From Candidatus Eremiobacter antarcticus (GTDB lineage: Bacteria; Vulcanimicrobiota; Vulcanimicrobiia; Eremiobacterales; Eremiobacteraceae), in NCBI GenBank assembly GCA_003244105.1, contig QHBK01000014.1:124001-188000 (forward strand): a stretch of DNA of 64,000 nucleotides, in the 5' to 3' direction. Made by a program: the position numbers and the translations under genes. Below, piece after piece: positions 5,101-23,533 of this stretch. The notes below the pieces were generated by a model that saw nothing but the letters and a program-made list of their open reading frames with translations, made no database searches and was not told the DNA's origin. Each line of letters opens with the position of its first letter. Positions within the stretch are counted from its first letter, which is position 1.

Positions 5101-6507
5101 GTGCTTGACCCTTTTGGCCGGCCGACGGCTGCGCGCGCGAAAGTGGGGATCTTGAACAAGGCGGTCGCACTCGCGCTCGGCGCAACAATCGGAACGGCTG
5201 CGACCTTGACCGGCTGCGGCGGCAATTCCGGATCGACACTGCCGCTGCCCCGCCAGTCGGCGCCGGCGGCAAGCCCGTCGCCCAGCATCGCCCCCTCAGC
5301 CAGCCCGTCGCCCAGTCCTTCGGCGACGGCTTCCGCTAATCCGCATCCGGCTTCCGAAGGCGACACCTTCGCGTTCGCGGGCTCCAGCAGGCAAGTGATC
5401 CTGCGATTCCGCCCGACGCCCACGCCGCCCGCCCAAGTCATCACGGCGACCGTGACCCAAAACCAAACGGTGCATGTCAACCGGCTCTTCCACGGCATCG
5501 CCGCGACGGATTTTCAGACGGTCGAGACGAACGCAGGTCCCAACCAGACGATCACGACGAACGCCGACGAGTACTTTCTGTTCCCCTCGGGCGCGGGCCC
5601 GGTCGTGAATATCGGCTTCAGCTCGATCGACAGCAATGGCGTCTCCCTTGACGTGCAATATTTGACCGGCAACGGGATCGAGGACTTCCTGCCCGAGACT
5701 GCGGGCGCTTCGTGGACGAACACCGCTTCGGCGATCGTGCTGGAAAACGACCCGGACGGGACCACCAGCACGCAAACGGTCAATGCGGATGGTTCTTACA
5801 CGCAGACAAAGTCCGAAGTCGCGGGGCAGACGACCATCACTCAGTCGAGCGACGGCACGGGAAGCCTAATCTCGCCGACGACAGCCTTCTTCGGTACCGG
5901 AACGGGAACCAAATTTCAGATCGGCCCGAACGACGGCACGCAGATCCCGATCACGATCACCGCGGTGGGAGCGTCTCCGCCGCCGATAAGCATCGTGGTG
6001 GCGTCATGGTATCCGGCATCGCCGACGCTGGCTGCCGATCAGACAACCGATCAAGGCATGACCGCGCTTCCGGTGGCGTGTGCCGGGCCCTCCTTCGGCA
6101 CGACCGGGATGCAACTGCACAGGACGAGGAGCCGTCTCGACACCGTGCTGGGGTTCACCGAGACCGAAGCGATCGATACGTGGATCGTACCCGGAGCAGG
6201 ACCCGTCTGCGTAAACTTGAGCGATACGGTGCAGCTCTATTACGACTTCACGGGTCAAACCGCGATCAACATCTTCAGCAGCAGTCCGCATCAGACCGCC
6301 ACCTTCGTCGAGACCATCGCATTGCAGTCTGAGACGGTGCTGCACCACGCGCGCCGTCAGCTTTCGGGTTCGGCACGATTGTCCACGCAGGCGTTCGTCC
6401 AGCGAGTCGCCGTTGCCGGTCTGAGAGCGGAGCGCTTCCGTCAGGGCATCCGCATGCAGCAGTTGCGCGCCTTGCGCACGCTCTTGCAACGAGGCCAGCA
6501 GGGATGA
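5101..6507 (+). CDS. lipoprotein with Pro-Ser linker, coupled to S53 peptidase
   Basis: The product has about 468 residues. A hydrophobic segment ends in the lipobox 'ATLTGC', so it should be a lipoprotein, followed by an Ala-Ser-Pro linker. The body is Thr- and Asn-rich and looks like beta-sandwich or extracellular repeat material, with no family that I recognise. The last 60 residues are instead Arg/Gln/Leu-rich and probably helical. The start is uncertain: GTG 5101 and GTG 5143 are both possible and neither has a good ribosome-binding site. The stop overlaps the ATG of the S53 peptidase (ATGA at 6504), so the two proteins are probably made together and may act together outside the cell. 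Confidence 0.72.
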   Translation: MLDPFGRPTAARAKVGILNKAVALALGATIGTAATLTGCGGNSGSTLPLPRQSAPAASPSPSIAPSASPSPSPSATASANPHPASEGDTFAFAGSSRQVILRFRPTPTPPAQVITATVTQNQTVHVNRLFHGIAATDFQTVETNAGPNQTITTNADEYFLFPSGAGPVVNIGFSSIDSNGVSLDVQYLTGNGIEDFLPETAGASWTNTASAIVLENDPDGTTSTQTVNADGSYTQTKSEVAGQTTITQSSDGTGSLISPTTAFFGTGTGTKFQIGPNDGTQIPITITAVGASPPPISIVVASWYPASPTLAADQTTDQGMTALPVACAGPSFGTTGMQLHRTRSRLDTVLGFTETEAIDTWIVPGAGPVCVNLSDTVQLYYDFTGQTAINIFSSSPHQTATFVETIALQSETVLHHARRQLSGSARLSTQAFVQRVAVAGLRAERFRQGIRMQQLRALRTLLQRGQQG

Positions 6508-8594
6508 GGCCACCGGCGCGCGCTTCGAACGCTTGGCTGTTGGGCTGCGTTTGCAGCATCGTGCTCTTGCCATGCGCCGCAGTTGCCGGGCCGCGCTGGA
6601 CATTGCCGGTCGCGCACAAGACGCTCGCTCCGCAGAGCGGCCGAGGCACGAGCTTTGCGTACGGAGCTGAGGTTTTGCAGGGAGCTCGTTTTCTCGGTCT
6701 CGCCCGTCTGCAGACCCTGAACTTGAACGTCGGCTTGCGCATGCGCGATGAGATGGGGCTGTACAACTATGCAAGGCTCGTCAGCGATCCGCGCTCTCCT
6801 TACTTCCGCCGCTTTTTGACCCCCGAACAACTGGGGGATTATTTCGGCGCTCCCGCGCTCGATCAAGCGCGCGCCATCGGCTATTTCACTTCGCGCGGCC
6901 TGTCCGTCCGGTGGTGGAAGCAACGGCAGATGCTGCGCGTGGCCGGCAGTCAAGCGCGCATGGAGCAGGCGTTCGGAACCCGCTTCGGCGTTTTTGAAAA
7001 AAACGGGCTGGCTTTTGTGGCGCCCGTCTCGGCTCCCCACGTCCTTGCGCCGCTCGCCATCAGCGGAGTGGGCGGATTGGTGTCCTACCATCAGTTGCGC
7101 CGCCACATCGAAACCGGCATCGCGCCGCAACACTTCGGCGGCATCGGAGCGGGCTTTCTCGTGGGCAACTCGCCGTTTCAGATCGCAGCAGCATTCGATT
7201 ACACGGGCGCCTACCAGCTGAGCTCGCTGTGCTGCAAGGGAGATGGGATCACGATCGGCGTCATCGGCACGGGGCCGATCAACACCAACGATACGGGCTC
7301 GGCGGGGGATGCCGTTCTCTTCAAGGCGGTCTTCAACGTCGGCGGCACGGGCACGGTCAGACAGGTGAATGTCAGCGCGGTCGCCCCCGGCTACAGCAGC
7401 GGCGTGCAGCCTCCGCCGCCGGTCACGCCACCCTGCACGCTCCAGCCTGCCAACTACACTGTCTGCAACCCTGAGGACATCGAAGCGCAACTCGACACCG
7501 AGCAGACGAATTCGCTGGCGCCGAACGCAAACGTCCTTTTCTATCTCGCGTACAATCCCAACGAGTGTTACGCCCCCGGACAGTGCCCGCCCGGGAGCGG
7601 ACTTCCCAGGTTGGGAATCAATGAGACCGACGACGAGTGGCAGCAAGCGATCAGCGACAACGTCGCCGACGTCCTGACCGCCAGTTTCGGAATCGGCGAG
7701 CTCGACTTCGCCGGGAAGAGCGGCGGTCTGCTCAACGCCGACGGCACCGGCATCGAGCCGCGCATCTTCGCCTCGCTTTCTGCACTCGGCATCGCCGTGT
7801 TCGTGTCATCCGCCGATACGGGTGCTGAAGGCTGCCGGACGGATCGGGTGCCTGCGACCGCCGATGCGCTTTGCCTTTCTTATCCAAGCTCCGATCCAAA
7901 CGTCGTGTCGGTCGGCGGCACGACCACGCCGATCGGCTCAAATGGCCGGCTGACCGGCATCATCACCGCATGGGGCAGGCAGACGCTGAACGGCGGCAGC
8001 GGCGGCGGCTTCTCATCCGTTTTCGCCAGGCGTGCGTACCAGCCGCCTGGCCTCTTCTGCGCCGATGATGGGCGATGCGACAGTCGCCACCGGCTGACGC
8101 CCGACGTCGCGTTGAACGCAGATCCGGCGACCGGGGTCAGCGTGATCATCAACAGCAACGACGCGCGCACGGGCGCGTCGTTGGGCGGTCCGCAGATCGG
8201 TTCGTTCGGAGGTACGAGCGCCGCCGCGCCCGGCATGGCTGCGATGTGGGCACTCGTGTTGCAGGCGTGCAAGCAGACTCTCGGGTGCGGCCGGGGCACG
8301 GGGCTTCACCCGTACCGGCTGGGCAACCCGGCTCCTCTCCTCTACGCGTTACCGCCTGAAGCTGCGCAAGCCGCTCTTCTCGACATCACCTATGGCAACA
8401 ATGCCATCCCGTCGACATCCGGCACCGGCTACGACCCGGGATTTAACGCAGCGCTGGGCTACGATTTGACCACCGGATTAGGCGCGCCGTTTGCGAGAAA
8501 TCTGATCGGCGCGATCGTAGGCGCAGTCAGCCGCTCCAACATGCTGCCTGCATCCGGACAACGCCGGGCTCTCAGGGGCGCACGTTTGGATTGA
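6504..8594 (+). CDS. S53 (sedolisin/kumamolisin-type) serine-carboxyl peptidase
   Basis: This is a 696-residue secreted pro-protease. A signal peptide (about 1-30) is followed by the pro-kumamolisin activation domain (about 75-215, including 'SPYFRRFLTPEQ'). The catalytic domain shows Glu327 and Asp331 in 'DIEAQLDTEQ', the oxyanion Asp438 in 'SSADTGAEG', and Ser572 in 'GGTSAAAPGM'. A C-terminal calcium-site region contains 'ITYGNNA' and 'GYDLTTGLGAP'. All four catalytic positions of the family are intact, so an active acid protease released by self-cleavage is expected. The gene starts inside the stop of the preceding lipoprotein gene. It converges with the gene ending at 8572, overlapping it by 23 bases. 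Confidence 0.93.
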   Translation: MRPPARASNAWLLGCVCSIVLLPCAAVAGPRWTLPVAHKTLAPQSGRGTSFAYGAEVLQGARFLGLARLQTLNLNVGLRMRDEMGLYNYARLVSDPRSPYFRRFLTPEQLGDYFGAPALDQARAIGYFTSRGLSVRWWKQRQMLRVAGSQARMEQAFGTRFGVFEKNGLAFVAPVSAPHVLAPLAISGVGGLVSYHQLRRHIETGIAPQHFGGIGAGFLVGNSPFQIAAAFDYTGAYQLSSLCCKGDGITIGVIGTGPINTNDTGSAGDAVLFKAVFNVGGTGTVRQVNVSAVAPGYSSGVQPPPPVTPPCTLQPANYTVCNPEDIEAQLDTEQTNSLAPNANVLFYLAYNPNECYAPGQCPPGSGLPRLGINETDDEWQQAISDNVADVLTASFGIGELDFAGKSGGLLNADGTGIEPRIFASLSALGIAVFVSSADTGAEGCRTDRVPATADALCLSYPSSDPNVVSVGGTTTPIGSNGRLTGIITAWGRQTLNGGSGGGFSSVFARRAYQPPGLFCADDGRCDSRHRLTPDVALNADPATGVSVIINSNDARTGASLGGPQIGSFGGTSAAAPGMAAMWALVLQACKQTLGCGRGTGLHPYRLGNPAPLLYALPPEAAQAALLDITYGNNAIPSTSGTGYDPGFNAALGYDLTTGLGAPFARNLIGAIVGAVSRSNMLPASGQRRALRGARLD

Positions 8595-9294
8595 GCTCGG
8601 CGAACGCACCGCTGGGATTCGGCACGACCCAAAAGCCCAGGTCCCACGCTTTCGGATGCACGTAGGTCCACAGCAGCGTCGCGTTCGGCGGCAATAACTT
8701 CGCGGCGCGCAGCTGCTGTGCGGTGACGGTGCGCCCTTGCAGGTTCGGCAACATCCTCGCGCCGCGGCGCTTGATGATTCCGGACGGCGTCTTGTACGCG
8801 AAATGGATGTGCGGATCTATGGTGGTCCAGCGGCTGCGGCGCACGGGATAGACGTTCTTGGCGGGCGGGTTCGGCCAGGCGCTCACCTCATACTGGTAGT
8901 CGAGACCGGCTAGTCTCCCATGCTTGTCGTACCACAGAAAATTGGGCGAATACTTGCTCACGCCGCTCCACCTGTTGTTGAACCAGATCGTCGTTCCATC
9001 GGGCTCGAGCTTCGTGGTCTGATAATAGCCTGCCGCGAGCGCGGAGCGTGTATCGGGGTATTTTTGGCCGAGCCGTTCGCTCACGTCACGCACGAACGCG
9101 GCTTCAGCCGCGTCCGGTTGGAACTTGCCAGCTTGCGAACCGGCCATAGGCGCCATGGCGGCCACGCTCACGCCCAAGGCGCGAACGACTGCCGCCCCGG
9201 TGGGACTCCATTCGAGCGTCACGAACGCGAGCGCGAAAAGCATCGTGCAAAACACTCGTGCGCTCAGCGGCATCTTGCTGCCGATTTTCATCAT
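8572..9294 (-). CDS. exported protein of unknown function
   Basis: From ATG at 9294 the product is 240 residues. That start has GGAG seven bases upstream and gives a signal peptide, whereas the longer GTG start at 9315 would add an Arg-rich stretch. The mature region is strand-rich with many aromatic residues. It contains 'GTTIWFNNRWSGVSKY', 'PHIHFAYKTPSGII' and a final 'ATLLWTYVHPKAWDLGFW'. The 'PHIHF' and 'VHPKAWD' segments could be metal or ligand positions, but this is speculation. I recognise no family. The last 23 bases overlap the S53 peptidase gene tail to tail. Confidence 0.72.
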   Translation of the reverse strand: MMKIGSKMPLSARVFCTMLFALAFVTLEWSPTGAAVVRALGVSVAAMAPMAGSQAGKFQPDAAEAAFVRDVSERLGQKYPDTRSALAAGYYQTTKLEPDGTTIWFNNRWSGVSKYSPNFLWYDKHGRLAGLDYQYEVSAWPNPPAKNVYPVRRSRWTTIDPHIHFAYKTPSGIIKRRGARMLPNLQGRTVTAQQLRAAKLLPPNATLLWTYVHPKAWDLGFWVVPNPSGAFAELNPNVRP

Positions 9295-9386
9295 CTTCAC
9301 TCTCCGTCGCCGCACCCATTGACTGCCGCTGCAACCGGCGGTCGCCTCGAAGGGGGCTGTGCTCGCCGCCCCTGAATTTTACCTGC

Positions 9387-12300
9387 ATGGATCCATTTCC
9401 GCCGACGGAGCAACAGCTGGCCGTCATCCAGCATCGGGATGCCAATCTTCTCGTCTTCGCCGGCCCGGGCACGGGCAAAACGGAAACGCTTGCCCGCCGC
9501 TTCGCTTCGCTGGTAGCCGACGACGGGATACCGCCCCAGCACATCCTCGTGCTGACGTTCTCGCGCCGCGCGGCGGAAGAGATGCGAGACCGAGTTCTGC
9601 TGCGCTTGCGGCAGCGTCTTGGCACCGGTTTGGCCGTGTCCGAGCTGTTCGTCAAGACGTTCCACGGCTTTTGCGGACGGCTCTTGCAAGGACAGTCGGG
9701 CTCGCGCGAGACCATGACGCTCTTGACGCCGGTCAAGGAACGGCTGCTGTGGCGCCGCCTGATGCAGCCCGGCCGGCTTGCGCTGCCGTCGTTCGCTCCC
9801 GATATCGCAGAAAGCTCGCAGTTCGCGACTGACTGCCTCAATGTCATCGCTCACCTCAAGACCCGTGGGATTGACGCGCAACAGTTCAGCAGTTTCAGCG
9901 ACGGCGATCCGCGCCTCCGCGACGTGAGCGTGATCTTCACCGCGTTGGAAGCGGAACGGCAACGCTTGGGCTTGCAAGACTTCCGCGATTTGGTCAACGA
10001 GGCGGTGCGGTCGCTGCACGATGTCGCCGGTCCCAGCGCACGCTGGCTGCAGTCGATGGACTTCCGCCACGTCTTGGTCGACGAATTCCAAGACAGCGAC
10101 GAGATGCAATTGCGCCTGCTCGAGCGCATCGCCGCCGTCCCCAGGACCGCTGCGACGTTTTGCTTCGTCGGCGACGTCAACCAGTCGATTTACCGCTTCC
10201 GCGGCGCTACGCCGCAAAACGTTGAGCGCGCGCGGTCTCAGTTCGCCTGCCAGTCGTTGCCGCTCAAAGACAACCGGCGCTCCGCGCAGCAGATCCTCGA
10301 CGTCGCCAACGCCGATCCGACGCTGCAGACCGAATCGCTGACGCGTGCGGCCGATCAGACCAAGGCGGGCAACGTGCGGCTGGAGCGCCCGCGCACCGTC
10401 GACGACGAGATACGAGCTGTCGTGGATGCGATCTGCGCGAAGATCTCATCCGGAACGCCGCGGCGCGACATCGCGGTGCTCTTGCGCCAGACCGCACCCT
10501 ATCAGCAGCTGATCGCAAGTGAGCTGCAAAACGCCGGCATTCCTGTCGCCGCCATGCCGGCAGCCGGTTTCCATGAAGATGGGCTGATCGACGCGGTTCT
10601 GACCTCGCTGCGCCTGCTGCAAGGTCCCGAAGACGCTCAGCTATGGCGCCGGCTGCTCGTCAACCCGATCATCGGGTTTCACCCGATCGAAGTGCGCTAC
10701 GCTTTAGACACGGGGCGGCGCGAGCACGTTGGCGAAGCGCGCGCAGCGCTCAGCCGGTATCTGCGAGGCGGCCGGCAATCGATCAAGACGTTTTTACAAC
10801 GCTGGGACCGCATAGCGGAGGCAGCCGCGGCGGACGAGCCGCTCGAGTTGCTGCGCCGTATCGTCAAAGAGCTTGACCTTCTGCAGCCGGTCACAAGCGC
10901 CGGAGTGTCGGGCTTCCATCCAGTCGCGTCGCCTCTGCGTTTGAACGCGCTGCTGACGGCGGCCGCGGATTACGAGGAGACGGCCGACTCCGCCACCGCG
11001 GCGGGCGCGCCGAGCAGGGTCGCAGATTTCGTCGCCAGGCTGGATGAGACGGTGGGCCTGCTGGCAGACGCGAACGAGCCGCCTCCCAATCTGATCGACG
11101 GCGTGCGCGTAATGTCCATCCACGCGGCCAAGGGGTTGGAATTCGAGTTCGTCGTCATCCCCCAGCTGCTTGACGGCATTCTGCCGGCGCGCGAGCGCCC
11201 GAACAAGCTCATCTCAGCCGCTGCCGGAGCGCGGCTGCGCAGCCGCGGCATCGACCTGTTCGCCGACAGCGCCGGGGCCGACCAGGAAGAACACTGCCTC
11301 TTCTATGTCGCGCTGACGCGGGCGAAGTCGGCAGTGCTGGCCACCGCCACCCAGGTGGACGATGAAGGCATACCGCTGCAGGTCTCTCCCTTTTCGACGG
11401 CCATCGACCCACAGGTTTTGCACGCTGCCCGCGCGCAACCGGCGGCTCCTGCGCAAGACATCGCACCTGCTGGACTCGCCGGCAGCTGCGCGGATGAGGG
11501 CGCTGGCTCGGACGATGCTCCTTCGGTGATTTCCCCTGCGGCTTCGAACGGTTCGTGCGCGGCTGCTTCAAACGGTCCGTCCAGGCGCGCGATTTCCTTC
11601 CCGCTGTCGCGGTTGTCGCCCACAAACATCGGCCGTTTCGTGCGCTGTCCGCGGCAATTCTTCTACGCCGATGTGCTGAGACTGGAAGGCAAGGACGACG
11701 ATGCGATGCAGTACGGCAGCACGCTGCACGACATCTTGCGCCGCTTCCACGAGCGGGAGACGAATTTCGAGGACGGGGGCGATCCGGAGGAAGCGCAGGC
11801 CCGTTACGCCTCGGTCCTGCGCGAGCTCGTGGAGCAACAGCCGCATCGGGCCGCCGACGACAGTCCGCTGGAACGCTTCGAAGCGCAGGACCTCATCGAA
11901 AAACTGGCGGTGTACGCGCGGCATCTCGCAAACGAGGCATCAGTCCATCCTTTTTCAGTGCTGGCCTGCGAGCAGCCGGTCAGGTCTTCGATCGGCGAGG
12001 TCGTGCTTCAGGGAAAAGCCGACCGCATCGATCGGCTGCGCGGAGGCGGCCTCGTCATACGTGACTACAAGTCCGGACGAATGAAGACCCGTCTCTTGGA
12101 AGCCGTGCGTGCGGCCCTTGGGTACTTAGATACAGGACACGAGCTTTTCGGCAATATGCCCAAGGGCTTGAACCTGCAGACGATCCTCTACGTGACGGGC
12201 GTTGAGCAAACGTATGAGGAGCCGGTCCAGCGGTTGGACTACATCTATTTCCGCGGCGAGGACTCGGGTGACACGGACATCTTGATGGACAGCACTGCCG

Positions 12301-12497
12301 TCGTCACGGGCGAACCGGGAGACCCCAAGGGGTTGACTCGGCCCGAGATCGGCCGCGTGGAACGCGATATCGCGGCGGGCATCGTCGCGTGGTGCAGCTC
12401 GGGCGCGCAAGTCGTGTTCCCCACTGCGCACGACGACGAGCCATGTCGTTATTGCGAGTACGTACGCATCTGTCCGGGGCCTGGCGCGGTCAGATGA
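9387..12497 (+). CDS. UvrD-type helicase with C-terminal PD-(D/E)XK nuclease (AdnA/AdnB-like subunit)
   Basis: The 1036-residue protein joins a superfamily 1A DNA helicase to a RecB-type nuclease, the layout of AdnAB double-strand-break resection enzymes. Helicase motifs seen are Walker A 'AGPGTGKTET', motif II 'LVDEFQDSDE', motif III 'GDVNQSIYRFRGA', motif V 'SIHAAKGLEFEFVV' and motif VI 'ALTRAKSAVLA'. In the last 300 residues 'GKADRIDRL' and 'IRDYKSG' form the nuclease core. 'CPRQFFYA' plus a final 'CRYCEYVRIC' supply four cysteines expected for an AddB-type 4Fe-4S staple. ATG 9387 was preferred because upstream codons read through low-quality sequence. The stop overlaps the start of the next gene, a second enzyme of the same layout. 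Confidence 0.92.
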   Translation: MDPFPPTEQQLAVIQHRDANLLVFAGPGTGKTETLARRFASLVADDGIPPQHILVLTFSRRAAEEMRDRVLLRLRQRLGTGLAVSELFVKTFHGFCGRLLQGQSGSRETMTLLTPVKERLLWRRLMQPGRLALPSFAPDIAESSQFATDCLNVIAHLKTRGIDAQQFSSFSDGDPRLRDVSVIFTALEAERQRLGLQDFRDLVNEAVRSLHDVAGPSARWLQSMDFRHVLVDEFQDSDEMQLRLLERIAAVPRTAATFCFVGDVNQSIYRFRGATPQNVERARSQFACQSLPLKDNRRSAQQILDVANADPTLQTESLTRAADQTKAGNVRLERPRTVDDEIRAVVDAICAKISSGTPRRDIAVLLRQTAPYQQLIASELQNAGIPVAAMPAAGFHEDGLIDAVLTSLRLLQGPEDAQLWRRLLVNPIIGFHPIEVRYALDTGRREHVGEARAALSRYLRGGRQSIKTFLQRWDRIAEAAAADEPLELLRRIVKELDLLQPVTSAGVSGFHPVASPLRLNALLTAAADYEETADSATAAGAPSRVADFVARLDETVGLLADANEPPPNLIDGVRVMSIHAAKGLEFEFVVIPQLLDGILPARERPNKLISAAAGARLRSRGIDLFADSAGADQEEHCLFYVALTRAKSAVLATATQVDDEGIPLQVSPFSTAIDPQVLHAARAQPAAPAQDIAPAGLAGSCADEGAGSDDAPSVISPAASNGSCAAASNGPSRRAISFPLSRLSPTNIGRFVRCPRQFFYADVLRLEGKDDDAMQYGSTLHDILRRFHERETNFEDGGDPEEAQARYASVLRELVEQQPHRAADDSPLERFEAQDLIEKLAVYARHLANEASVHPFSVLACEQPVRSSIGEVVLQGKADRIDRLRGGGLVIRDYKSGRMKTRLLEAVRAALGYLDTGHELFGNMPKGLNLQTILYVTGVEQTYEEPVQRLDYIYFRGEDSGDTDILMDSTAVVTGEPGDPKGLTRPEIGRVERDIAAGIVAWCSSGAQVVFPTAHDDEPCRYCEYVRICPGPGAVR

Positions 12498-15400
12498 TGG
12501 ACCAGCGCCCTTCGACGCTATCCGGCTCACAGCAGGATATCGTCCGCCATCGGGGTCCGTCCCCCGCCGTGGTGGAGGCCGGAGCGGGCACGGGCAAGAC
12601 GTTCACTATCGTCGAGCGGGTTGCGTCGTTGCACGAGACGGGCGCCTGCCCCGTCGACAGAATTCTCGTCTTGACCTTCGCGCGCAAGGCAGCCGCCGAG
12701 TTGAAGATGCGCTTTGCGGGCCGGATGCAGACGCCTCCCGACTGTTTCACCTTCCATGCGTTTGCATGGAACGTGCTGTCCACCCACGCGTACGACGTCG
12801 GATTGTCTCCGGATGCCGTCGTCATCGATGACGTGGAGGCGCGGGTCCACTTCCACAAAGCCTTCGAGGAGTATCTGCGGGAGCCGCAGTCAGCAGCCTG
12901 CGGATTCCCGCTTCGCCCTCACAACGTCGAAGAGATCCGCACGGCGCTTTTCGGCATAGGCCAGACGTTGAAACAAGACGGGATCTCACTCACGCAGTTC
13001 CGCGAGCGCGCCGTGCGGGCGGCTGAGGAATTCAGCCGCGTGCCGTACCGTGAGCTGCGCAAGAAAACGCTCCAAGGCAAAGTCGAGGCATCGGTCAGCG
13101 ATGCCGAATTCGCCGAAGAGCTGGTGCTGGAACGGCAGCGCATCGATGCAGCCGTCCTAATCCTCGAGACGTTCAACCGGCGCATGGAGGCGTTGAACTC
13201 GCTGAGCTACGCCGATATCTTGATCTTGGCTGAACGAGCCATCCGGGAGGATCCGGTCTTGGCGGACCAGCTCCGCCAACGCTATCCGTACTGCATCGTC
13301 GACGAGTACCAAGACACCGACTTGGCGCAGCACCGGCTTTTGAAAGCTCTCTACGGGGATGACTTGCTCAACGTCATGGTCGTGGGAGACGTGCTGCAAA
13401 GCATTTACGGTTTTCGCGGCGCGCATCCGCAAAACGTCGAAGCCATCAAGAGCCTCGCGGGTGCGCACGTGTATCCACTGATCGAAAATCGCCGTTCGCG
13501 CCAGGAGATCTTGGATTTAGGCTACGCAGTGATCCGGGGGACGCATGGGGATGCGCGCCACTTGCACGCTGAGCGCGGACGGGCAGGCGAACAGAACGTG
13601 CACATCTCGAGCATGTGGTTCCCGGAGTCGGTCGAGTATCTGCCCGTCGATGAGGCGCGGGTCTTGGAAGCGTCGGTTGTGGGGCGCCGCATCTGCGGGT
13701 TGCTGACGAGCGGCACTATGGTCGAGGGAAGCGATGGAGCGCCGCGGCCGATCTCCCCGCGCGACATCGCCATTCTGTCGCGCAACAAGACCAAGGTCCA
13801 GGCCGTCACCAACGCCCTGCTGGAGATGGGCATACCCTTCCGGCTCGTTGGCGGCGTCGGCTTTTACGACGCCGGGGAGGTCCGCGACGCGCTCGCCTGG
13901 CTGCGCCTTGCCGCGGATCCGATGGACGCCCACGCGATCACGCGAGCGCTGCAGTCACCCGTCATGGGCGCGACCGACGCGGAGCTCGCGGCGGTCTCTC
14001 ACGGCCTCAAAGCCGACGAGACGGCCTTCTCGACGCGCGTCCTCGTTGAAGCGGCAGCCGAAGATGCTTCCAACTTCACGGGCGAGGGCGACGGAAACGT
14101 CATCGCGCGATTCAGGAAGTTGGCGGACGAGATAGCGCTGTGCTCCGCCCTGCCGCTCATGAGCGCGTTGCAGACCATTTTGGACAAGACAGGTCTGCGC
14201 AGCTACTGGGAAGAGAACGCGGATGCGCGAGCGCCCCAAGCCTTGGCCAATCTGCTGAAATTGGAGAGCCTAGCGCGCGGTTTTGCAAACGATCTTCCGG
14301 GCGCTCTGCCGGCCGATTTCATCATCTTCATCGACGAGCTGGAGCGGATCGAATTCGACGAGCGCGAAGCCGACGTGGTCTCCCTCGATGCGGTCACCAT
14401 CTCCACTATCCACGCAGCCAAAGGTCTCGAGTGGCCGGTTGTATTCGTGCTCGGGATCTGGCCCCAACCTGGCAAGCGCGCACGGCTCTTCGTCGATGAA
14501 GCGTCTGGCGCGCTTTTGTACGCGGAAAATCCAGACGGCTCCATTTCCTTCCACCACACCGCCGTGAAGGACCGCGCCGACGCCCAAGGTGTGCTGCACA
14601 AGCTCGACGCTGAGGAAAAGGAGATGGCGAAGGCGGAGGAGTGCAGACTCTTCTACGTCGCCATCACCCGCGCGCGCGACCTGCTGTACCTGAGCGGTTT
14701 TCGATCGAAGCGTTCACCAAGAAATCCTGACGGCAAGCCGCACGACTATTTGATCGCCGCCTATGACTGGCTGCGGGCTAAGGGTTGGAACAGCGACGAG
14801 GGCGTCCCCGCTCATCCGCCCTTGCATCTGGGCGTTGGCCCGCGCAGCAATGGCAGCGCTTCAGGTCCCAGACAGGCGGTGCGCGAGCAGATCGCGGCCG
14901 TGCCATCGGCGACTGCCGTGCCCGCGTTGTCCTATTCGTCGATCGCTTGTTACGAACAATGCCCACGACGCGTGACATATAAGACGATGTTCCGTCTGCC
15001 CGAGATCGTCGCGACGAAGGGCTGGACGCCTTCGCGAGCACCGTTTGACGCTGCCTCTAACGCTGCAGACGATGGCCCGCCTGAGGATTCGATCCTCAGC
15101 GTGGGTGAGCAGGGCCAACTGGTCCACAAGGCCTTGGAGCTGTGGGCTCTCGACCGCATGTCAGGCACGTCAAGGACGCCCACGGATTACGTCGCCGGGG
15201 CGGTTCAGGCGCTCAACTTGACACCCCCCGCGGCCAAGCTATCGGCGATGGCCGCAAGCGTGGGGCGTGTCTCAAGCTCGTTGAGCGGATGGATGCCGCT
15301 GCACGTCGAGGCGCCGTTCACGCTCGATCTCGGCGAGGAAGGTTCGCGTCTGTTGGTTTCCGGCTACATCGACCTCGTCGCCAAGGACGAGACGGGGCGA

Positions 15401-15706
15401 TCCTGCCTGCTGGACTACAAAACCGGCGACGCGCACGAAGCTTCGCATTACGCCTTGCAAGTCGCGCTCTATCAGGCGGCCGTTCGGGCGGTCTATGCGA
15501 TTCCCGACGCGCGCTGCTTCATCGGCCGCATCGGAGAGCGCGCCTTTTCGCTCGAACCGGTGACGCCGATCGCCAATGAGGAGTTGTCGGCGCGCATCCT
15601 CGCGGTGCGAAACGGATTGAGAGCGCAAAACGTCACTCCCATCCCGGGCGACTGGTGCTTCTCGTGCCCCTACCGCGGCGCGCCCTGCCAAGACTACAAG
15701 AGATAG
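12494..15706 (+). CDS. UvrD-type helicase with C-terminal PD-(D/E)XK nuclease (second AdnAB-like subunit)
   Basis: The 1070-residue protein has the same layout as its neighbour. Walker A is 'AGAGTGKTFT', motif II 'IVDEYQDTD', motif III 'GDVLQSIYGFRGAHP', motif V 'STIHAAKGLEWPVVF' and motif VI 'AITRARDLLYL'. The nuclease part shows 'GYIDLVAKD' and 'CLLDYKTGDAHE'. Cysteines in 'CYEQCPRR' and the terminal 'CFSCPYRGAPC' suggest a 4Fe-4S cluster. ATG 12494 overlaps the preceding TGA as ATGA, so the subunits should be made in equal amounts and form a heterodimer. Both ATPase sites and both nuclease cores look intact. That matches AdnAB rather than AddAB or RecBCD, where AddB or RecC lack one activity. 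Confidence 0.92.
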   Translation: MMDQRPSTLSGSQQDIVRHRGPSPAVVEAGAGTGKTFTIVERVASLHETGACPVDRILVLTFARKAAAELKMRFAGRMQTPPDCFTFHAFAWNVLSTHAYDVGLSPDAVVIDDVEARVHFHKAFEEYLREPQSAACGFPLRPHNVEEIRTALFGIGQTLKQDGISLTQFRERAVRAAEEFSRVPYRELRKKTLQGKVEASVSDAEFAEELVLERQRIDAAVLILETFNRRMEALNSLSYADILILAERAIREDPVLADQLRQRYPYCIVDEYQDTDLAQHRLLKALYGDDLLNVMVVGDVLQSIYGFRGAHPQNVEAIKSLAGAHVYPLIENRRSRQEILDLGYAVIRGTHGDARHLHAERGRAGEQNVHISSMWFPESVEYLPVDEARVLEASVVGRRICGLLTSGTMVEGSDGAPRPISPRDIAILSRNKTKVQAVTNALLEMGIPFRLVGGVGFYDAGEVRDALAWLRLAADPMDAHAITRALQSPVMGATDAELAAVSHGLKADETAFSTRVLVEAAAEDASNFTGEGDGNVIARFRKLADEIALCSALPLMSALQTILDKTGLRSYWEENADARAPQALANLLKLESLARGFANDLPGALPADFIIFIDELERIEFDEREADVVSLDAVTISTIHAAKGLEWPVVFVLGIWPQPGKRARLFVDEASGALLYAENPDGSISFHHTAVKDRADAQGVLHKLDAEEKEMAKAEECRLFYVAITRARDLLYLSGFRSKRSPRNPDGKPHDYLIAAYDWLRAKGWNSDEGVPAHPPLHLGVGPRSNGSASGPRQAVREQIAAVPSATAVPALSYSSIACYEQCPRRVTYKTMFRLPEIVATKGWTPSRAPFDAASNAADDGPPEDSILSVGEQGQLVHKALELWALDRMSGTSRTPTDYVAGAVQALNLTPPAAKLSAMAASVGRVSSSLSGWMPLHVEAPFTLDLGEEGSRLLVSGYIDLVAKDETGRSCLLDYKTGDAHEASHYALQVALYQAAVRAVYAIPDARCFIGRIGERAFSLEPVTPIANEELSARILAVRNGLRAQNVTPIPGDWCFSCPYRGAPCQDYKR

Positions 15707-15710
15707 TTCG

Positions 15711-16166
15711 CTAAGGCTTGATCTTGTCGCCGGTAGCGCGCGACTTCTTCAGCCGGTCGACCTCGGAGGCGTCCAGCGCCTGAGGCCTGTCGCGGTTCGC
15801 ATCGACCACGCACAAAAATCCGAACGGCTCCGAGCCCTCGTTCACGAACTGGTGCGCCGTATTGGGCGGGACGTAGACGTGGTCGAAGAGATCGATCGGA
15901 TGCACTTCTTCTCCGACGATTGCGTAACCGCGCCCACGCAATCCGATCACCGAATGGATGTGCTCGTGCCGCTCCAAGCTCGTGAAGCCACCCGGCGCGA
16001 CCTCGAAATAACGGACGTCGAAAGCGCCGCCTTCCTCGCGGCCCTTGATGATGTGGCGGCTCGTGCCGCGCCACGTGCGGCCGCCCGCATCCTCCTGTTG
16101 GGCCGCGTATTCCGCTTCTTCCACGCCCGACCACGAGAAAGTGGCCGCATCGAACGATCGCTTCAT
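15711..16166 (-). CDS. cupin-fold protein
   Basis: The 151-residue protein is a single small beta-barrel cupin. Motif 1 is 'TSLERHEHIHSVIGLRGRG', giving the His-x-His pair for metal binding. Motif 2 is 'VYVPPNTAHQFVNEG', with the third His. Such proteins are sugar or sugar-acid isomerases, dioxygenases or ligand sensors; the sequence does not decide between these. Its ATG overlaps the stop of the upstream zinc dehydrogenase gene by four bases. It is the last gene of the operon running leftward from about 20955, so it probably acts on a metabolite of that pathway. It ends five bases from the helicase-nuclease gene. Confidence 0.85.
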   Translation of the reverse strand: MKRSFDAATFSWSGVEEAEYAAQQEDAGGRTWRGTSRHIIKGREEGGAFDVRYFEVAPGGFTSLERHEHIHSVIGLRGRGYAIVGEEVHPIDLFDHVYVPPNTAHQFVNEGSEPFGFLCVVDANRDRPQALDASEVDRLKKSRATGDKIKP

Positions 16167-21076: not shown

Positions 21077-23533
21077 TTAGTAGTGTTGGGTGACGGTCAG
21101 CGTGATCGCGCGCGCCGGCAGCGCGAAGGCGTCGGTGGCTACGGGGCCGCTTGCGCCGGGATAGGCAACTCCGGCGCCGAGCCGCGTGAAGCGGCTGTCG
21201 TAAAGGTTGCCGAGATTGGTGGCCGACAGGGCCACATCCGTGTGCGCCCGGCGGTAGCCTAGCCCCGCGTCGACGACGGTGTGCGGCGGCCGGCTCAACT
21301 GGTTGTTCACGCCCTCGTAGGCAGCTCTCGTCCACCAGGACAATCCTTGCGACAACCGCTGCTCGACCGACAACTCGGCTTTGTGAAGCGGTATCCCTTG
21401 GAACTGCTGGCCGGCAACGAACGTCGGCGCCGTCGGATCGAAGACGGGAAGCGGAACGCTGACCGGATAGGCACTGTTGATCCCATAGCCGGCGCGCACC
21501 AAGGTTGAATGGCCGATCGTCTTCTCAAGACGAGCTTCCACGCCTTGGTAGACGACGTTGGAGATATTCACCGGAAAGCTCAGGCACGAATTCGTCGCGG
21601 TCACGACGCACGGAATGGGCTGCGGGATGATCACGAAGACAGGGTTGCGCAGATTCGTGCGATAGGCATTGACGGTGGCTTGCAACGCCTGCGCGTCATT
21701 GCCGAAGCGGTGCTCGAGCCCAAGCTCGTACTGCATCGTACGCTCCGCAGTGAGGTTTGGGTTTCCGATGTTGATGAAACCGTTGGCGTCCGGCGGCGGC
21801 AACACCGACGGCACGAAGCGCTCTGCCAACAGCGGCGCCCGGAATGCGGTTCCGACCGAGGCGCGCACGACCGAATCCGCTGCCGGCGTCCACACGACTG
21901 CGAAGCGCGGCTCGAAGCTGTGCCCGAAGGTGTCGAACGAGTTGACGTAGCCTGCAGCCGTGAAATGAAGCTTGACGCCCGCGTCCCACTGATAGCGGCC
22001 CACGAACGAGCGCTGCGTCTGCGCGCGCACGGAGCCGTCAGGCGCGAAGACATCCGGTGCTTGCAGTCGCTCGGCGCGCACGTCCGCTGCCAGCGTCAGG
22101 CTGCCGTTGCTGAGCTGACGGTCGTACTCGATCGAATCATCGTCGAACTGATCGACATTGCTGAAAAGCCAAGGCGAGAGGTTGACGGCCGTGTTGCCTG
22201 TGGGAGCGCCCACGACCGTCTGGCTGTTGGCACTCGTCAAGTGGCGCACGATCAGGGTCGCCGGCGGCGCGGTGCCTGCGTCATGTTTGCCGCCGAGCGG
22301 CAACTGAAGGTCGACCCCGTAGGCCGGAGTGTTGCTGAAAATCGCTGACCCTGCAAAGCTCGCAAAGGGCGCGCCTTGCGTCGCCCGAGCCGGATCATCG
22401 GGTGCGCTCAAGCCGGCTGACAGATCCCGATAGGCAGAGGTGTTGCGGTAGGTCAATTCGATGAAGCCGTCGCCCGCTGCGATCGGATAGCGCAGTTTGG
22501 CCAGCATCGTGGTGGCGTTGATCGCGCTTCCCAAAACTGCCGGTTGACCGCTCGCGTCGTCGGTGACGGTGAAATCGTGAACCGCGCCGTCGGTGTTGTA
22601 ACGGTGCCAAGAAAAGGCGTAGCCGATGCTGTTCGCCGTGCCGGTCGTCTGGAATGTCTCGCCCGAAGTCCCGAAGCTGCCAGCGCTGAAGCGGAGCAGC
22701 CCGTGATCCTGTCCGGTTGGTTCGATCGTGCGGAAGTTGACGGCGCCGCCTTGCGTGTTGGCGCCGGTCAAAGACGACGGCCCGATGCCGTACACGACTT
22801 GGATGTCGGAGAATTCAGCCGGATCCAAAACCGCCAAATCGAAATCTCCGGTGTTGGAATTGTTCACCTCGTGACCGTCGATGTCGACCAGCGTTTCCGA
22901 AGGATCGGGGCCTCGCAGGCTGACCAATTGCGGCGCGCCCGGCGATGCGCCGTTGGGTTCAGAAATGGTCACTCCGATTTGCTCGCCCAGGATTTGCGCA
23001 ACATCCTCGATGCCGCGGCCGGCCAAGTCTTGCGGATCGAGATTCAGCGAGGGAGCCGATGCGGTCGATAGCGCCTCTCTGCCGTTGACCAAAACCGTGC
23101 CCAGCGTCGCAAGCGACGAGCTCTCCGTGCGCGCCAACCTGAGATCTACTCTGACAGGTCCGCCCGCGGGCGCGGCCGGGACTGAAAAAGAAAACGCCCG
23201 CAGCGGCGCAAAGCCGCCCGCGAAGGCGCTGATCTCGTAGTTGCCGGCAGGGACCTCAGCGATCGCGAAGCGGCCGTTCGCATCGCTGAGCGCCTCTCGG
23301 ATGATGCGAGCAGCGTCAAACGCGCGGCCGGCGACCTTGACCCTCGCACCCACCACGGGCCTGCCCTGGGCATCTGAAACTTTGCCCTGGATGCCTCCTG
23401 CGGTCCGCACCAAGCCGGATGCACCGGTGGGGCTCGCCGTCGCTCCTAACGCGGCGCTCCCAGGGCCCCATAACGCTGTCAGCAAGCCGAGAAGGGCGAA
23501 CGTCGAAGCTGCCGCGCGCAAGACTCTCATCAC
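21077..23533 (-). CDS. TonB-dependent outer-membrane receptor with carboxypeptidase-regulatory-like N-domain
   Basis: The 818-residue protein has a signal peptide. Residues about 48-130 form a carboxypeptidase-regulatory-like beta-sandwich ('GKVSDAQGRPVVGARVKVAG'). A plug domain at about 160-265 includes 'ISEPNGASPGAPQLVSLRG' and 'TLVDIDGHEVN'. A beta-barrel follows to a C-terminal aromatic residue. Such receptors import scarce ligands across the outer membrane. AAAGGAG sits eight bases before the GTG start at 23533. It is transcribed toward the oxidoreductase operon on the same strand, which suggests, without proof, that its ligand is the substrate of that operon. It also shows that the host has an outer membrane. 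Confidence 0.93.
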   Translation of the reverse strand: MMRVLRAAASTFALLGLLTALWGPGSAALGATASPTGASGLVRTAGGIQGKVSDAQGRPVVGARVKVAGRAFDAARIIREALSDANGRFAIAEVPAGNYEISAFAGGFAPLRAFSFSVPAAPAGGPVRVDLRLARTESSSLATLGTVLVNGREALSTASAPSLNLDPQDLAGRGIEDVAQILGEQIGVTISEPNGASPGAPQLVSLRGPDPSETLVDIDGHEVNNSNTGDFDLAVLDPAEFSDIQVVYGIGPSSLTGANTQGGAVNFRTIEPTGQDHGLLRFSAGSFGTSGETFQTTGTANSIGYAFSWHRYNTDGAVHDFTVTDDASGQPAVLGSAINATTMLAKLRYPIAAGDGFIELTYRNTSAYRDLSAGLSAPDDPARATQGAPFASFAGSAIFSNTPAYGVDLQLPLGGKHDAGTAPPATLIVRHLTSANSQTVVGAPTGNTAVNLSPWLFSNVDQFDDDSIEYDRQLSNGSLTLAADVRAERLQAPDVFAPDGSVRAQTQRSFVGRYQWDAGVKLHFTAAGYVNSFDTFGHSFEPRFAVVWTPAADSVVRASVGTAFRAPLLAERFVPSVLPPPDANGFINIGNPNLTAERTMQYELGLEHRFGNDAQALQATVNAYRTNLRNPVFVIIPQPIPCVVTATNSCLSFPVNISNVVYQGVEARLEKTIGHSTLVRAGYGINSAYPVSVPLPVFDPTAPTFVAGQQFQGIPLHKAELSVEQRLSQGLSWWTRAAYEGVNNQLSRPPHTVVDAGLGYRRAHTDVALSATNLGNLYDSRFTRLGAGVAYPGASGPVATDAFALPARAITLTVTQHY

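Follow-up and report, generated by a model that had tools for sequence, protein, structure and literature searches.

The overlapping gene pair

The window analysed here was the whole 64,000-nucleotide stretch of Candidatus Eremiobacter antarcticus DNA at positions 124001-188000 of contig C14, taken from an assembly of 2.64 Mb that was 95.8% complete. Two adjacent plus-strand genes within it, here called geneA (1036 amino acids, from the ATG at 9387 to the stop at 12495-12497) and geneB (1070 amino acids, from the ATG at 12494 to the stop at 15706), were found to encode proteins that each combine a UvrD-type helicase motor with a PD-(D/E)XK nuclease and four cysteines (the Cys tetrad). An initial annotation of this DNA had described such an ATGA-overlapping pair with both activities complete in each protein, and that description held: its coordinates were exact, and the Pfam matches and conserved residues agreed with it. 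The ATGA overlap itself suggests that translation of the two genes is coupled. The features of the pair, all on the plus strand and in window coordinates, were as follows.

9387-12497, plus: geneA (AdnA-like), with UvrD-type motor, PD-(D/E)XK nuclease and Cys tetrad
9408-11345, plus: geneA motor domain, residues 8-653 (Pfam PF00580/PF13361)
9459-9482, plus: geneA Walker A, AGPGTGKT, residues 25-32
10077-10094, plus: geneA motif II, VDEFQD, residues 231-236
11610-12476, plus: geneA PD-(D/E)XK nuclease, residues 742-1030 (PF12705, E=6.9e-31)
11646-11648, plus: geneA first Cys of the tetrad, C754
12063-12071, plus: geneA nuclease catalytic D-Y-K (D893, K895)
12444-12473, plus: geneA C-x2-C-x5-C (C1020, C1023, C1029)
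12494-12497, plus: ATGA stop/start overlap of geneA and geneB
12494-15706, plus: geneB (AdnB/AddA-like), with UvrD-type motor, PD-(D/E)XK nuclease and Cys tetrad
12524-14698, plus: geneB motor domain, residues 11-735 (Pfam PF00580/PF13361)
12578-12601, plus: geneB Walker A, AGAGTGKT, residues 29-36
13298-13315, plus: geneB motif II, VDEYQD, residues 269-274
14927-15679, plus: geneB PD-(D/E)XK nuclease, residues 812-1062 (PF12705, E=8.1e-19)
14960-14962, plus: geneB first Cys of the tetrad, C823
15413-15421, plus: geneB nuclease catalytic D-Y-K (D974, K976), aligned with the Asp of nuclease-dead AdnB D1014A
15656-15688, plus: geneB C-x2-C-x6-C (C1055, C1058, C1065)

In both proteins, the N- and C-terminal UvrD domains and the PDDEXK_1 domain scored far over the curated Pfam cut-offs. 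The helicase superfamily 1 motifs of these two SF1A-type motors were all intact (GxGKT, VDExQD, GDxxQSIYxFRG, KGLE and YVAxTRA), with Walker A and motifs II, III, IV, V and VI complete, and the nuclease residues H...D...DYK...Q...Y were likewise in place. When 21 relatives of geneA and 18 of geneB were aligned, the motor and nuclease sites were kept and the four cysteines were invariant in each protein. Judged from these alignments, the conservation of motifs and cysteines in the pair is far beyond chance. Single-chain AlphaFold2 models reached moderate confidence, with a mean predicted local distance difference test score (pLDDT) of 74.6 for geneB and 71.2 for geneA; the models were confident over the motors and a large part of the nuclease cores but not in the linkers or in portions of the C-terminal Cys regions, and the nuclease part of the underlying alignments was shallow.

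Placement of the two proteins

Motor-domain trees were built with AdnA and AdnB from seven Actinobacteria, together with AddA, RecB, UvrD and single-chain helicase-nucleases of the Candidate Phyla Radiation (CPR). A scan of named genomes with the geneB alignment mostly matched UvrD, and the AdnA, AdnB and AddA references were taken from the genomes behind those loci. In these trees, geneA, geneB, AdnA and AdnB formed one group, with support of 98 and 97 in the Shimodaira-Hasegawa-like approximate likelihood ratio test (SH-aLRT) and, in a third tree computed under a simpler model with two long rows left out, of 100/97 (ultrafast bootstrap/SH-aLRT). This group was separate from AddA/RecB, from UvrD and from the single-chain CPR enzymes; AddA/RecB was monophyletic without geneB (98), as was AddA alone in the simpler-model tree (100/97). 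Support for geneA with AdnA was 65, 89 and 99/96, the last from the simpler-model tree, and geneA is likely the sister of AdnA. GeneB branched outside the group of AdnB, AdnA and geneA; a grouping of geneB with AdnB was not recovered, and imposing it cost little in the approximately unbiased (AU) test (p=0.37, not rejected). A profile search of the PDB with the geneB family found AdnB best (379 bits), followed by AddA (277) and RecB (176). With the geneA family, AdnA matched over nearly the whole length (209-215 bits, positions 21-876), and UvrD outscored AdnA on the motor alone. Read cautiously, these comparisons would place the pair in a lineage of its own that branches deeply, with motors belonging to the AdnAB group and a root that is only loosely placed.

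The Cys tetrads spanning each nuclease domain are spaced as would be expected of ligands for a 4Fe-4S cluster, and such a cluster may be present in both proteins. The initial annotation had treated four-Cys motifs in both subunits as a special mark, a view that did not survive comparison. Several AddA proteins also carried the tetrad, namely those from Thermoflavimicrobium, from a planctomycete and from a relative belonging to the same phylum, while it was seen in none of the seven actinobacterial AdnB proteins fetched, one of which was truncated. Actinobacterial AdnA carried it, with one fetched AdnA lacking a plain C-terminal motif. In contrast to the rest of the actinobacterial AdnB proteins fetched, an AdnB-sister from an Actinomycetota genome (L196:4231-7761) retained a Cys tetrad at its C-terminus; the tetrad was therefore regarded as varying within AdnAB and not as one of its defining features. 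The simplest reading would be that the trait is old and that actinobacterial AdnB and many AddA have lost it.

Distribution, a probable reduced sibling pair and genome context

Of the class's 117 genomes, counting that of the window, 23 had relatives of geneA and/or geneB; a few of these carriers had them on contig ends or in pieces, and one had geneB only. By family, carriers made up 12/14 genomes of the same family, 4/4 of a second and 7/~99 of the largest. In the phylum's other classes (149 genomes searched in all), the search turned up no geneA relative like this; the best matches there were single-chain UvrD-nuclease proteins. Single-chain UvrD plus PD-(D/E)XK proteins occurred in CPR genomes, with similar matches in the phylum's other classes; the two sets together comprise the loci L097, L102, L139 and L140 and search hits in G175, G176, G178, G180-G183 and G186. 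AddA-like proteins were present in two genomes of the other classes, and in one of the two the neighbouring gene was AddB-like.

GeneA and geneB remained together in their relatives. Flanking genes upstream or downstream of the pair recurred in several family members, a pattern that speaks against contamination and against a mobile gain of very recent date. A contaminating contig was rejected as an explanation because geneB was carried by 12/14 family members. Two genes were seen beside the pair in several family members: upstream, at 8572-9315 on the minus strand, a conserved unknown protein, and downstream, at 15711-16166, a cupin protein. A Pro-kumamolisin-type subtilase-like protease was also located just upstream of the pair, at 6504-8594.

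A second helicase-nuclease-like pair, P0003/P0004, was located at C13:42965-47297 (equal to L013:6966-11298). P0003 (694 amino acids) is an Fe-S-type nuclease with no recognisable motor, and P0004 (783 amino acids) is UvrD-like, having retained Walker A, with D-D-A-E at motif II, motif III lost and no nuclease. P0004 relatives were present in 109/120 genomes, a nuclease gene adjoined the P0004 relative in 17/17 of the relatives examined, and their motor motifs spanned a range, partly retained at one end (G024, G050) and badly eroded at the other. In the trees, P0004 motors joined geneB (93) and P0003 nucleases joined the group of geneA and AdnA (83). We infer a paralogous pair that would consist of an A subunit minus its motor and a B subunit minus its nuclease. 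A canonical addAB at this site was rejected, as P0003 and P0004 have just one nuclease and one degenerate motor between them.

Elsewhere in the genome, the other UvrD-type genes were one PcrA/UvrD (C2) and one weak match (C13). Beyond geneA and geneB, the PDDEXK_1 nucleases were P0003 and a solo 328-amino-acid protein (L014:4148-5134), which carries its cysteines as CPR...CxxC...C and has no helicase in the same protein. The genome search did not find RecC, nor any further intact AddA/RecB-type helicase-nuclease besides geneA and geneB; the expected absence of recBCD and addAB was upheld to that extent, with the reduced relative pair on C13 as a qualification. A TonB-dependent receptor at window position 21080-23533 and an Omp85 protein at C3:153960-155120 make a diderm envelope likely, in agreement with the initial annotation of a diderm, TonB-receptor-bearing genome.

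Alternative readings, proposed role and known systems

We consider it probable that geneA and geneB specify the paired subunits of a helicase-nuclease of AdnAB type, which would resect DNA double-strand breaks in RecA-dependent repair, and that they form a separate deep lineage, not a close orthologue of actinobacterial AdnAB. Several results weighed against this assignment. Grouping geneB with AddA/RecB was not rejected (AU p=0.195, 52-row set), and in the nuclease-domain trees, which had few columns and weak support, the geneB nuclease grouped with AddA/RecB (SH-aLRT 88); the geneA nuclease grouped with P0003 and loosely with AdnA in those trees. The geneB nuclease carried the GxIDL motif of AddA, not the GRIDA of AdnB. 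Identity of the pair to AdnA/AdnB was 20-25%, no higher than to AddA (20-26% over both families), and geneB scored 194 bits against a planctomycete AddA and 134 bits against AdnB. For the geneB model, Foldseek ranked AddA first and placed RecB ahead of AdnB, with UvrD also matched; for the geneA model it ranked UvrD and AddA over AdnA/AdnB. These matches confirm, at the level of fold, that the models are of motor-nuclease proteins and were of no help in choosing between AddA and AdnB. The points that concern geneB (its nuclease placement and motif, its pairwise scores, the AU result and its first-ranked structural match) would favour an enzyme of the AddAB lineage, in which geneB is a deep AddA, its partner is AdnA-like with a working motor and the two-motor form arose independently of AdnAB. 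We judged this unlikely; geneB stood apart from AddA/RecB in all motor trees, and AdnB was preferred over AddA in the PDB profile search. In the trees, the motors supported the initial annotation's reading of an AdnAB-like pair, and the place of geneB was tentative.

An accessory helicase-nuclease that degrades phage or other foreign DNA beside a housekeeping repair system, namely the class-wide C13 pair, would be in keeping with the patchy occurrence of geneA and geneB outside their own family (7/~99 genomes of the largest family) and with the near-universal reduced pair. We regard this as improbable, however, given that most genomes of its own family carry the pair and that its flanking genes recur there; a scan of the adjacent genes, moreover, showed none related to phage or defence. 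PADLOC matches were explained by the generic UvrD motor (GajB); Gabija or another defence system was rejected on the ground that this motor alone matched. Very improbable, in our view, is that the proteins act separately as two single-chain helicase-nucleases like those of the CPR. GeneA did score slightly higher against the CPR enzymes than against AdnA, but the overlapping genes stay together across the class, and the CPR enzymes lay apart from both geneA and geneB in the trees.

Returning to the AdnAB-type reading, double-strand-break resection is by analogy the most likely function. In AdnAB, the B motor acts on the 3' strand, the A nuclease on the 5' strand and the B nuclease on the 3' strand. 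Past domain content, we infer each step of the mechanism: the two proteins would form a heterodimer that loads on a broken end, the geneB motor would pull on the 3'-ended strand in the manner of AdnB, the 5'-ended strand would be cut by the geneA nuclease and the 3'-ended strand by that of geneB, and unwinding and trimming would leave a 3' tail for RecA. An Fe-S cluster in each Cys tetrad could pin the two ends of its nuclease domain.

AdnAB was reported only in Actinobacteria by a survey of complete genomes whose profiles were built from homologues more than 40% identical (PMC6452273), and a pair at 20-25% would therefore probably be missed by it. Finding such a pair, with two motors and two nucleases, in a diderm group suggests a greater age or a wider spread of this form than has been assumed. 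The widening of AdnAB's range that had been anticipated stood as regards architecture outside Actinobacteria; an AdnAB-type architecture in a separate lineage was supported, and strict-sense AdnAB orthology was not. More tentatively, as a possibility we would put somewhat short of even, the pair may represent a third lineage of break-resecting machines with two motors and two nucleases, in a diderm phylum and with Fe-S clusters in both subunits. This lineage would have given rise in the class to a nearly universal reduced sibling, of which one protein has retained the A-type nuclease alone and the other just a B-type motor with altered catalytic motifs. The reduced C13 pair offers a natural experiment in how much of such a machine can go.

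Among known systems, RecBCD resembles the pair in that RecB has a motor and a nuclease, and differs in having RecC, which this genome lacks. The single-chain proteins of the CPR and of the phylum's other classes have the same domain order, and their profile scores were similar to those of AdnA; unlike geneA and geneB, they are one protein with no overlapping partner of the same architecture, and they form a separate clade. AddAB shares two subunits, two nucleases and a Cys tetrad in the B-type subunit (in some AddA too), whereas AddB has lost the motor motifs that geneA keeps in full and both proteins fall outside AddA/RecB in the motor trees. AdnAB, of mycobacteria and other Actinobacteria, has two subunits, each with a UvrD-type motor and a RecB-like nuclease, and matches the pair in the tandem order adnA-adnB, the Cys tetrad of the A subunit, the nuclease residues and the joint clade of motors. 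It differs in that geneB bears a tetrad and actinobacterial AdnB does not, in the AddA-like look of the geneB nuclease, in the low identity (20-25%) and in the intact geneA motor, whereas the AdnA motor motifs of Mycolicibacterium, Corynebacterium and Cellulomonas have degenerated or gone (for example a degenerate VDDAQHLD; L192:7532-10663, L197:7381-10752, L200:1810-5034). Those of Streptomyces AdnA were intact, and the pair could serve as an outgroup for timing both the loss of the AdnA motor, which is intact in Streptomyces and degenerate in Mycolicibacterium, and the loss of the AdnB Cys tetrad.

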